Origin: Thermoflexales bacterium
GTDB lineage: Bacteria; Chloroflexota; Anaerolineae; Fen-1058
Assembly: GCA_016931085.1 (NCBI GenBank)
Contig: JAFGFO010000199.1
Coordinates: 1-7,237 of the forward strand
Length of the DNA stretch: 7,237 nt
Direction of reading: 5' to 3'
In this document: positions 1-2,369 of the stretch, piece by piece
Position numbering within the stretch: the stretch's first letter is position 1
Layout of the letters: each line of letters opens with the position of its first letter
Notes under the pieces: generated by a model
Seen by the model: the letters and a program-made list of their open reading frames with translations, nothing else
Told to the model about the DNA's origin: nothing
Database searches by the model: none
Translations under genes and position numbers: made by a program

Positions 1-24
1 ACGCAATACGCAATACGCAATACG
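1..24. repeat. Tandem heptanucleotide repeat (ACGCAAT)x3
   Basis: Three exact copies of ACGCAAT followed by ACG open the window, and the array may continue to the left. The same CGCAA core recurs with the same 7-nt period inside murB at 620-640, so these look like one repeat family. The stretch is open in the murB frame, so it could be either the region before murB or translated N-terminal sequence. The general type resembles the STRR heptanucleotide repeats described in cyanobacteria; that is a comparison, not an assignment. Confidence 0.85.
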
Positions 25-40
25 AGATCTCCTTGCGGCT

Positions 41-1048
41 TTGGGAGAGCGCGCCAGGTGCGACGAGCCATTGAAGCGCCACACGACCATACGCATCGGT
101 GGGCCGGCCGACCTGTACGTTGAAGCGTCTACAGCTCGAGAGCTGGCGGACCTGGTCTTGCTGGCGCGCCAACACCACGTGCCGCACCTGGTCATGGGCA
201 GCGGCAGCAATATGCTGGTGAGCGACGCAGGCCTGCGAGGCTTGGTCATTGCGAACAGGGCCAGGCGGATTGAATTTCAGGTTGAAGGTTCCAGCTTTCA
301 GGCCGATAAAGACAATGGGCTCGTGGAGCTTGAACCTGAGACATTCAAGCTGCAAGCTGAAACCATCCTGGCCTGGGCCGAAAGCGGCGTGACGCTGCCC
401 AGCTTGGCGCTCGCGTGTATCGAGCGCGGCTATGCTAACCTGGAATGGGCCGCCGGGGTGCCGGGCACGGTCGGCGGCGCGGTGGTGGGAAATGCCGGCG
501 CTCACGGCGGCGACGTAGCGTGTGACCTGGTCACCGCCACCATCCTGAACGGGGATGGCGTGGCGCGTGATTGGAGCAACGAGGAGCTTGGCTTTGGGTA
601 CCGGACGAGCAGGTTGAAAATCGCAAACCGCAAATCGCAAACACCTGCACTTGCGCTGGAGCGCAGCGCAGGTGCAAGTGTCGCAATTTGTAGACCGGTG
701 GTTTTGGCGGCGGCGTTTCGACTGCGGACAAGCACACGCGAGGAGCTAGAGGCGCGAGTGGCCGATTTTGCCGGGCGGCGCCGGCGCCGCCAGCCGCCGG
801 GCGCGACCATGGGTTCAGTTTTCAAGAACCCGACTGGCGATTACGCCGGCCGCTTGCTGGAGGCCGCCGGCCTGAAGGGAAGCCAGGTCGGCCAGGCTCA
901 AATCAGCCCGGCCCACGCCAACTTTATTGTCAACCTGGGCGATGCAACGGCTGCGGATGTCAAAGCGCTCATCGACCTGGCCCGCGACAAAGTGCGGGCG
1001 CAATTCGGGGTCGAGTTGGAACTGGAGATCGAGCTGATTGGGGAATAG
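41..1048 (+). CDS. murB: UDP-N-acetylenolpyruvoylglucosamine reductase MurB, start uncertain
   Basis: MurB is the cytoplasmic FAD- and NADPH-dependent enzyme that reduces UDP-GlcNAc-enolpyruvate to UDP-MurNAc, the second committed step of peptidoglycan precursor synthesis. Counting from the TTG at 41 (335 aa), the sequence shows the DEPLKRHTTIRIGGPADL N-terminal motif (8-25), the FAD-binding GSGSNMLV (53-60), EWAAGVPGTVGGAVVGNAGAHGGD (135-158), GFGYRTSR (184-191, Arg188), the proton donor in GSVFKNP (Ser259), and a C-terminal ELEIELIGE whose Glu329 matches the catalytic Glu. The short form with GSVFKNP fits type II MurB. Two segments are not expected in the family, about residues 78-108 and 194-217, and both coincide with repeat DNA. 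The start is doubtful: TTG 41 has no clear ribosome site, the frame is open to the window edge, and the upstream in-frame residues RDLLAAL look like a MurB N-terminus. The gene may therefore begin outside the window. Confidence 0.95.
   Translation: MGERARCDEPLKRHTTIRIGGPADLYVEASTARELADLVLLARQHHVPHLVMGSGSNMLVSDAGLRGLVIANRARRIEFQVEGSSFQADKDNGLVELEPETFKLQAETILAWAESGVTLPSLALACIERGYANLEWAAGVPGTVGGAVVGNAGAHGGDVACDLVTATILNGDGVARDWSNEELGFGYRTSRLKIANRKSQTPALALERSAGASVAICRPVVLAAAFRLRTSTREELEARVADFAGRRRRRQPPGATMGSVFKNPTGDYAGRLLEAAGLKGSQVGQAQISPAHANFIVNLGDATAADVKALIDLARDKVRAQFGVELELEIELIGE
275..362. repeat. Heptad-built inverted repeat inside murB
   Basis: Two 28-nt arms (275-302 and 335-362) are imperfect reverse complements, with 20 of 28 positions pairing without gaps, around a 32-nt spacer. 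Both arms have a 7-nt rhythm: AATTTCA, GGTTGAA, GGTTCCA, GCTTTCA on the left and ACCTGAG, ACATTCA, AGCTGCA, AGCTGAA on the right. A smaller perfect stem, AGCTTGAA/TTCAAGCT (327-334 and 344-351), is nested on the right side. The stretch encodes about MurB residues 78-108, where related enzymes usually have some 20-25 fewer residues between GLVI and the SGVTLPSLA segment. I infer an in-frame insertion; the exact edges are approximate. Confidence 0.65.
620..691. repeat. Heptad array plus long hairpin inside murB
   Basis: The segment starts with three heptads, ATCGCAA, ACCGCAA, ATCGCAA (620-640), encoding IANRKSQ. It continues with a hairpin whose 18-nt arms (641-658 and 664-681) pair at 16 positions plus one G-T wobble and one C-A mismatch, around a 5-nt loop GAGCG. 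TCGCAA occurs on both sides of the hairpin (635-640 and 681-686). The 72 nt encode residues 194-217, placed exactly between the conserved GFGYRTSR and the RPVVLAAAFRL strand, which normally follow each other closely. The reading frame is kept (24 codons). An in-frame repeat insertion in a surface loop is the simplest reading. Confidence 0.8.
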
Positions 1049-1087: not shown

Positions 1088-1146
1088 ACCACGAAGGACA
1101 CGAAGAACACAAAGGAAATCTTGGTGTCCTTGGTGCCCTTCGTGGT
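1088..1146. repeat. CCACGAAGGACACGAAG-type palindromic repeat
   Basis: The murB-ddl gap is mostly one imperfect palindrome: arms of 27 nt (1088-1114 and 1120-1146) pair at 23 of 27 positions around a 5-nt loop GAAAT. The arms are made of roughly 9-nt units (CACGAAGGA, CACGAAGAA, CACAAAGGA; TTGGTGTCC, TTGGTGCCC, TTCGTGGTT). From memory, this CCACGAAGGACACGAAG pattern is a common intergenic repeat in several large-genome bacterial phyla, often mis-annotated as small proteins containing NHEGHQGHQ or CPWCPSW. It has no transposase of its own here. As RNA it would form a strong hairpin between the two genes, without a U tract on the + strand. Confidence 0.85.
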
Positions 1147-1166: not shown

Positions 1167-2369
1167 ATGGCCAAACGAAAATTACGCATCGGGGTCATTT
1201 TCGGCGGCAAGTCGGGCGAACACGAGGTCAGTGTGAGCAGCGCCCAGTCAGTGATGCGCGCCATCGATCCAGCCCGTTACGAGGTGGTGCCGATCGGCAT
1301 CACCAAGGAAGGGCGCTGGTTGACCCATGGCGATCCACTGGCGGCGCTCACCAGCCGGCAGGTGACCATGGCCAGCTTGTTATCTGGCGCCACGATCATC
1401 GATGCCGCGGGCGGCTCCGACTTGAAGGGTGAACAGTTGTCGCTTGACCTGGAGATCACCGACGCAGAGATGGGAAACCAGAGCTTGATTTCGAGAACGC
1501 GTGACTTGATCCCTGGTACACGCGAGGCTGGGATTCCCAACGTGGATGTGATCTTTCCGGTACTGCACGGCCCGTACGGCGAGGATGGCACACTGCAGGG
1601 GCTGCTGGAGTTGGCCGATATCCCTTACGTGGGGGCAGGCGTCATGGCCTCAGCGGTGGGCATGGACAAGGCCGTGATGAAAGATGTGTTTGTCGCCCAC
1701 GGCTTGCCGGTGGCGCCCTACCTGACCATCACACGGCAAAGCTGGGAGCGCGATCCAGTCACGGCGATGGAGGCCATCGAGCAAAAAATCGGCTGGCCGT
1801 GTTTCGTCAAGCCGGCTAACCTGGGTTCGAGCGTTGGCATCAGCAAAGCGCACAATATCCCCGAGCTTGACGAGGCGTTGGCCGAAGCGGCCCAGTACGA
1901 CCGCAAACTGTTGGTTGAAATGGCTGTGCCACAAGCGCGCGAGATCGAGTGCAGCGTGCTGGGCAACGACGATCCCATCGCCAGTCTCCCAGGCGAGATT
2001 GTGCCCAGCCGCGAGTTTTACGACTATGCGGCCAAGTACCTGGACAGCGGCGAAAACGCATCGCAATTGCTCATCCCAGCGCCTATTGCAGACGAGTTGG
2101 CTGCCCAGGTACGCGGCTTGAGCATCAAGGCCTACACAGCCATCGACTGCGCCGGCATGGCGCGGGCCGATTTCCTGTTGGACGGCCAGGCTGGCACGTT
2201 ATACATCAACGAGCTCAATACGATCCCGGGCTTTACTCAGATCAGCATGTACACCAAGCTGTGGGAAGCAAGTGGCATCCCTTATGCAGAACTCATCGAT
2301 AGACTAGTCGAGTTAGCGCTGGAACGCTACACGGATAAACGGCGCTCGCGCACCACCTACGTGGTGTAA
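1167..2369 (+). CDS. ddl: D-alanine--D-alanine ligase
   Basis: This ATP-grasp enzyme joins two D-alanines in the cytoplasm, and MurF adds the product to the UDP-MurNAc peptide. Visible landmarks are GGKSGEHEVS (13-22; Glu18 matches E. coli DdlB Glu15), FPVLHGPYGEDGTLQG (130-145), KPANLGSSVGI (215-225, the Ser loop), the omega loop FYDYAAKY (284-291), Arg333 and Asp335 in ARAD, and NELNTIPGFT with the magnesium ligands Glu349 and Asn351. Tyr291 aligns with DdlB Tyr216. It is Phe in known D-Ala-D-lactate ligases, so a normal D-Ala-D-Ala product is expected. At 400 aa it is longer than most Ddl proteins (roughly 300-370). Much of the excess lies before FPVLHG, where about residues 102-124 coincide with a repeat-like segment. 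The last codons hold a small palindrome, CACCAC-ctac-GTGGTG (2351-2366), right before the stop. Confidence 0.96.
   Translation: MAKRKLRIGVIFGGKSGEHEVSVSSAQSVMRAIDPARYEVVPIGITKEGRWLTHGDPLAALTSRQVTMASLLSGATIIDAAGGSDLKGEQLSLDLEITDAEMGNQSLISRTRDLIPGTREAGIPNVDVIFPVLHGPYGEDGTLQGLLELADIPYVGAGVMASAVGMDKAVMKDVFVAHGLPVAPYLTITRQSWERDPVTAMEAIEQKIGWPCFVKPANLGSSVGISKAHNIPELDEALAEAAQYDRKLLVEMAVPQAREIECSVLGNDDPIASLPGEIVPSREFYDYAAKYLDSGENASQLLIPAPIADELAAQVRGLSIKAYTAIDCAGMARADFLLDGQAGTLYINELNTIPGFTQISMYTKLWEASGIPYAELIDRLVELALERYTDKRRSRTTYVV
1471..1539. repeat. Probable 69-nt inserted element inside ddl
   Basis: The segment begins TGGGAAACC (1471-1479) and ends GGATTCCCA (1531-1539), terminal inverted repeats matching at 8 of 9 positions. 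CTTGATT (1484-1490) and CTTGATC (1505-1511) are spaced exactly 21 nt, three heptads, as in the murB repeats. Its 69 nt keep the frame and encode about residues 102-124 (NQSLISRTRDLIPGTREAGI), which have no counterpart that I recognise in Ddl; the conserved VDVIFPVLHG follows at once. This is a weaker case than the murB insertions because Ddl length varies naturally at this place. Confidence 0.5.

Follow-up and report, generated by a model that had tools for sequence, protein, structure and literature searches.

The window (the whole stretch of DNA that was analyzed, 7,237 nucleotides from a Thermoflexales bacterium) holds a dcw-type cluster of murB, ddl, an FtsQ-like gene and ftsA, assigned by families, followed by an FtsZ-like ORF recognized by eye (Table 1). 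The protein is recognized as MurB by NF010480 and TIGR00179, with scores that exceed their curated cut-offs, and the murB frame is open throughout, inclusive of the heptad and hairpin stretch. The frame is also open up to the left end of the window and hence the true start of murB was left unassigned. Among periods of 4 to 15, the tandem repeats with the highest scores in the window have period 7 and are located at 1–24 and 618–641. The fold of nucleotides 612–696 is at −39.9 kcal/mol, compared to −23.8 ± 3.1 kcal/mol in 200 shuffles, of which none reached it. The proposal of the first-pass annotation that a repeat and a hairpin lie in frame within murB is thus borne out. The region 560–760 had no match in Rfam at E ≤ 1. 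In the neighborhood of murB, an imperfect inverted repeat precedes ddl; by eye, sequence resembling this repeat flanks the palindrome described below in two other loci (L348 and L350). Ddl itself seems to carry an extra stretch, and its match exceeds the corresponding stretch of the NCBIfam model by 25 residues.

Table 1. Coordinates of the features within the window
Feature	Position	Strand	Remarks
ACGCAAT heptad array	1..24	+	Period-7 segment; at or before the MurB N-terminus
murB (UDP-N-acetylmuramate dehydrogenase)	41..1048	+	TTG at 41 is the first start of the listed ORF
Second in-frame MurB expansion (QVEGSSFQADKDNGLVELEPETFKLQAETILAW)	278..376	+	Similar in the homologue P0002; degenerate heptad-like DNA by eye only
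Heptad array, left part	618..641	+	AAATCGC AAACCGC AAATCGC AAA, up to the palindrome; AAATCGC-type, degenerate; period-7 segment
Palindromic element, 39 bp (CACCTGCACTTGCG...GCAGGTGCAAGTG)	642..680	.	13 codons, between A641 and T681
Heptad array, right part	681..691	+	TCGC AATTTGT, from the palindrome onward
Imperfect inverted repeat, 9-bp period (ACCACGAAGGACACGAAG...)	1088..1146		Between murB and ddl
Apparent extra stretch of Ddl (LKGEQLSLDLEITDAEMGNQSLISRTRDLIPGTREAG)	about 1400..1540		

A palindrome within a heptad array

Two distinct layers, a heptad array and a separate palindrome, make up the stretch within murB. The palindrome is CACCTGCACTTGCGCTGGAGCGCAGCGCAGGTGCAAGTG in its full 39 nt; 30 of the 39 positions are unchanged in the reverse complement, and none of the six frames contains a stop. 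When A641 is joined to T681, a regular array results (AAATCGC AAACCGC AAATCGC AAATCGC AATTTGT). The peptide of this joined frame is RLKIANRKSQIAICRPVVLA, compared to RLKIANRKSQTPALALERSAGASVAICRPVVLAA for the gene as found; TPALALERSAGAS is the peptide predicted in MurB if the palindrome is translated. As the joining restores the heptads, the simplest history is that of an in-frame array first, into which the palindrome then brought 13 codons. The stretch had been annotated at first as one heptad-hairpin element of 72 nt, a description that we replace with an array and a separate palindrome of 39 bp, which accounts for 13 residues.

The palindrome as a dispersed family

The palindrome at 642–680 is a dispersed element. 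One arm, ACACYTGCACYTGCG, gave 33 matches in 9 of 19 relatives, compared to 2 for the reversed control. The whole hairpin (searched as ACACYTGCACYTGCGN{4,30}GCARGTGT) is present in 49 of 396 genomes of the class, and the reversed control was 0 in every row. A draw from the phylum had the hairpin in 11 of 301 genomes, all 11 of them shared with the class draw; the hairpin was absent from all 263 genomes that were new in the phylum draw (G761–G1023, classes not told). The 15-nt arm is held by 64 viral contigs, 6 of which have the full hairpin; a search of viral contigs by MurB returned none. The 78 copies span 26–43 bp, mostly 27, 28 or 39 bp, with a single copy of 43 bp, and 68 of them have no stop in any of the six frames. 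The copy nearest to that of the window (in L250) is identical at 38 of 39 positions. One copy (L401:1–60, genome G507) lies inside another palindrome, in its loop; this outer palindrome has a GTAG tag and adjoins a Y1 transposase gene.

Insertion sites

Both genes and other repeats have received copies, for the most part at A^T and with no duplication of the target. The original search patterns already required an A and a T next to the element, so a relaxed pattern freed of these flanking bases was used. With this pattern, 46 of 54 copies were preceded by A and followed by T, where chance would give about 1 in 16; the count is from by-eye comparison of the relaxed with the original lists in ten of 30 genomes (G684, G181, G642, G403, G637, G141, G041, G064, G073 and G089). 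Five of the remaining 8 copies are at T^T. For 5 of the 78 copies, empty sites (9+9 flanking bases) were found in the DNA examined, at three distinct targets and only with AT between the flanks; none of the 78 copies had an empty site with any of the 15 other dinucleotides or with nothing between the flanks. A further empty-site search led to a fourth target. Joining of the flanks via AT restores the heptads in the window and in L160, and, by eye, motifs such as IGKMKADE of SerRS. Target-site duplication, a feature of MITEs, was not seen: one AT is present in the empty sites, and in the occupied ones A lies on one side of the element and T on the other. An alternative reading, in which 5 bp had been duplicated at the target (CGCAA for the window and TGCTG for L160), was rejected because AT joining restores the heptads and the empty sites carry AT.

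The targets that were hit repeatedly are GTC^AT^TGCGAGGGCG, TTTCG^AT^ACG, the heptads GATTGCTG^AT^TGCTG and a GTAG-tagged palindrome. Some of this recurrence may reflect a single compound repeat that was itself copied, and not independent insertions. A hairpin-apex score of at least 5 was obtained for 19 of 76 targets, compared to 8% of control AT sites. Preferential insertion at hairpin apices is a tendency that we did not adopt as a rule, as most targets are not apices.

The distribution of targets also bears on whether the hairpin and the heptads could be one composite element. The hairpin touches heptads in the window, and copies in genomes G405 (L160) and G403 (L158, L166) are within heptads too. 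Yet, few of the 76 distinct targets are heptads (by eye), the hairpin being found in many other kinds of target; the palindrome is absent from the listed heptad arrays, and heptad-like loops occur without it in P0002 and other MurBs. We consider a single composite very unlikely.

Copies within genes

A copy was assigned to a gene when Pfam matches spanned it, or were on both sides of it, in one open frame. Frame-keeping copies were found by this criterion in SerRS (L156), AIRS domains of the PurL type (L158), the transpeptidase/BiPBP_C of a PBP (L166), PNP_UDP_1 (L182), a multicopper oxidase (L193), Wzy_C/TPR (L194), GT4 (L221), UvrD (L346) and TauE (L351). For PMT_2 (L363), the Pfam match is on one side of the palindrome only. 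Two copies are found in a fragment of a group II RT gene (L195/L250) and one in a short ABC fragment (L199), all in core motifs; these RT and ABC carrier genes look degenerate or fragmentary. In L250 (genome G526), the two copies in the group II intron reverse transcriptase fragment are of 39 bp, lie at GGI/SP and CL/RYADD, and keep the frame. All listed gene copies are of 27 or 39 bp, and that of the window is also of 39 bp. A 29-bp copy in L192 breaks the frame of a transposase-like gene; when the pieces were scanned apart, one had a weak DDE_Tnp_1 match below the cut-off and the other had none. The reverse search, which started from the 33 off-frame copies, gave 14 rows (13 copies), of which L192 was taken further. 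Lengths that are multiples of 3 were found in 10 of 10 spanning gene copies and 35 of 68 others (78 copies; p = 0.0025), or in 10 of 11 and 35 of 67 when the off-frame L192 is included among the gene copies (p = 0.015). This excess is biased and partly an artefact, because the search for gene copies looked for frames that run across the element. Spanning frames without a family match (L180 on both strands, L192 plus, L185 minus, L189, L190, L203, L205 and L211) and those with a match on one side only (L185 plus, L244 and L257) were left out of the gene list.

Could the palindrome be cut from the mRNA, or skipped by the ribosome, such that MurB is made without it? The yeast mitochondrial "byps" are skipped elements and provide a comparison. 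The stability of the hairpin, the copies within RT and ABC core motifs, and the out-of-frame 29-bp copy would all fit. However, skipping needs no multiples of 3, yet the copies in cellular genes are of 27 or 39 bp (in a search biased to open frames); the genes of the RT and ABC copies appear fragmentary, and the insert of the window is, by the model below, in a tolerant loop. We hold removal or skipping of the palindrome to be very improbable.

The MurB loop in relatives and in a structure model

The flanking aligned blocks are separated by 5 residues in 1hsk of Staphylococcus aureus and by 27 here, and by 2 residues in 3tx1 and 24 here. Both comparisons give 22 extra residues, close to the 24 estimated at first. 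Such short spacing does not hold everywhere. In 114 related loci, a few genes of which are represented twice, mostly 20–23 residues make up the segment that begins with xYRxS and ends with VVLxAxF, with 24–58 in the rest and 41 in the window. Rather than being conserved at equal length in all close relatives, the loop varies in both length and sequence. The closest homologue (P0002, 82% identity, compared as protein) has KISNINYQISNRP at the loop, without the palindrome peptide. The second expanded region is of 37 amino acids, compared to a median of 11 in 120 homologues, and is about 25 residues longer than in three aligned solved MurBs, in which both expanded regions are shorter.

Palindrome-like peptides occur, among the 120 homologues, in the MurB loop of P0012, P0016, P0041 and P0053, besides that of the window, and in the other (second) expanded region in P0009. 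Judged from these peptides, MurB seems to have two recurrent landing sites.

An AlphaFold2 model of MurB was built on an alignment of 41 sequences (A1). The mean pLDDT is 85, residues 215–226 are below 50, and values around residues 91–120 are low too. By this model, the 13 residues of the palindrome are on a low-confidence, probably floppy loop of MurB. The idea that a selfish-looking repeat is read in frame in an essential enzyme is supported by this model, from the dispersed copies and from the other frame-keeping gene copies.

Heptad arrays

In 400 kb of genome G684 we found 31 arrays of period 7, compared to 4 of period 6 and 6 of period 8, and five Markov sequences of the same length had no period-7 arrays. 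The corresponding numbers for 80 MurB loci (774 kb) are 30, 2 and 10, with the period-7 arrays distributed over 16 loci. Eleven of the 31 arrays in G684 are within 8 Pfam-recognized ORFs: one array each in RrnaAD (KsgA), PriA, YfhO/Polysacc_synt, a DEAD helicase and PurS/AIRS (PurL), and two each in GH2, BPD_transp_1 and MurB. Two further arrays are in ORFs of 149 and 170 amino acids, outside the Pfam-scanned set. A single domain match encloses the array in both KsgA and the DEAD helicase; in PriA, GH2 and PurL, the array falls between matches. In L139:9413–13927 of the same genome, a 68-bp inverted heptad array is in frame in an ORF of 1505 amino acids, with YfhO and Polysacc_synt on either side; as these two domains are unrelated and the array lies between them, the ORF could be two genes in one frame.

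Different lineages fill the MurB loop with different heptad families: GCAGGAT-type units in G001, GATGCAA-type in G405, AGAAGTC and CGCAATA in G403, and AGTCAAC-type in G684. A test on protein alone asked whether synonymous codons could give the loop a period of 7, compared to 40 shuffles. The loops of 64 of 113 MurBs beat all shuffles, whereas three control stretches did so in 1, 0 and 0 of 120 cases; at other periods, 0–4 of 113 loops did so. For the loop of P0002, 0 of 40 shuffles reached its score. A fourth stretch (up80) gave 18 of 120, and by position it is largely on the second expanded region, which itself gave 27 of 120. The loop of the window does not stand out (6 of 40 shuffles reached its score), as expected if the palindrome interrupts the array.

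These data speak to the possibility that the MurB loop is an ordinary, functional one, specific to the lineage, and that its DNA looks repetitive by chance. That loops of relatives vary in length, and that the second expansion is similar in P0002, would be in keeping with it. For 642–680 it is refuted by copies at unrelated locations, to which the palindrome is identical at 38 of 39 positions, and the period-7 excess over the three control stretches also argues against it. It may hold for the second expansion (278–376); overall, we accord it very little probability.

Comparison with known elements

Intragenic palindromes are already known. The Rickettsia palindromic elements (RPEs) of Rickettsia and Wolbachia are described as palindromic repeats of 100–150 bp in genes, with the frame kept, at solvent-exposed places (PMC3767692). 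The present palindrome is likewise within ORFs with the frame kept (one copy being frame-breaking). In the MurB model, it is on a low-confidence loop. It differs in size (mostly 27–39 bp, with none of the 78 copies as long as an RPE), in its occurrence in Anaerolineae, in its sequence and in its prevailing A^T junction. The ATGAC motif of RPE-4/6/7 is absent by eye on both strands of the 39-mer of the window. The parallel to RPEs drawn in the first-pass annotation is sound as to the type of repeat, although the present palindrome is far shorter, differs in sequence and comes from another phylum.

REPs are described as palindromes of 20–40 bp, some of them intragenic, with GTAG repeats also in Chloroflexi (PMC3733652). 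The copies here are within this size, save for the one of 43 bp among the 78, but within 8 bases on either side of the 78 copies there is no fixed tetranucleotide. The element is without a GTAG or CGTC tag, and its targets include a GTAG-tagged palindrome (L401, L252). Membership in the GTAG/CGTC super-families, or mobilization by a Y1 (RAYT-type) transposase, would be in line with the similar size, the intragenic copies and the presence of Y1_Tnp in 15 of 16 chosen carriers. In contrast, 10 of the 12 non-carriers that were chosen have Y1_Tnp as well, no fixed GTAG/CGTC adjoins the element, and a copy was found in 2 of 30 Y1 loci of carriers and non-carriers, one nested in a GTAG-tagged palindrome and one about 800 bp away. 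As Y1 is common in both groups and copies are in 2 of 30 Y1 loci, no link to Y1 is shown, and we regard this relationship as unlikely.

The GC clusters of yeast mitochondria are described as mobile GC-rich dispersed repeats of about 32–42 bp, with AG target nucleotides that appear twice in the footprints and with the 89 GC42 sites located between genes or in introns (PMC4478555). The palindrome is similarly a mobile dispersed repeat of comparable size; it differs by the lack of target duplication. As for the heptads, degenerate 7-nt repeats able to pair into a hairpin are described in the tRNA-Leu intron of Nostoc (PMC3488679). The heptanucleotide character is shared, as seen in the excess of period 7 over periods 6 and 8 in G684 and the MurB loci, but the Nostoc repeats sit in an intron, whereas the heptads here are in frame in core proteins, in many unit families and in another phylum. 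In the literature searched, which covered few subscription papers, we found no description of this palindrome or of translated heptads in this phylum. The latter are apparently an undescribed phenomenon.

Discussion

We think it likely, by the sequence comparisons above, that a non-autonomous palindrome was inserted into a pre-existing heptad array of MurB and is translated. The array would already have filled a surface loop of MurB. The 39-bp element, a member of a dispersed family with a prevailing A^T junction, would have entered between A and T, without target duplication. Given that the insert is of 39 nt (3 × 13), stop-free in every frame and placed, in the model, in a flexible loop, MurB would still be read through, and we infer that the enzyme is made and active with the insert. 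Selection would purge frame-breaking or structure-breaking insertions from essential genes. The palindrome would be moved by an enzyme that acts in trans, perhaps on the extruded hairpin, and the heptads may arise via slippage or copying of short units.

More broadly, and with somewhat less than an even chance in our judgment, Anaerolineae may host a distinct class of minimal mobile palindromes (mostly 27–39 bp, mostly stop-free, moved in trans, with an A/T junction without duplication), which together with ever-changing heptads would rewrite surface loops of essential proteins, with the MurB loop as a recurrent landing site. The locus offers a bacterial case, outside of Rickettsia and Wolbachia, of selfish repeats that appear to be translated in core enzymes. 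The insertion rule of the palindrome makes empty sites recognizable, and the family points to a mobilizing enzyme. The heptads in KsgA, PriA, PurL and MurB constitute a natural experiment on the gain of new protein loops.
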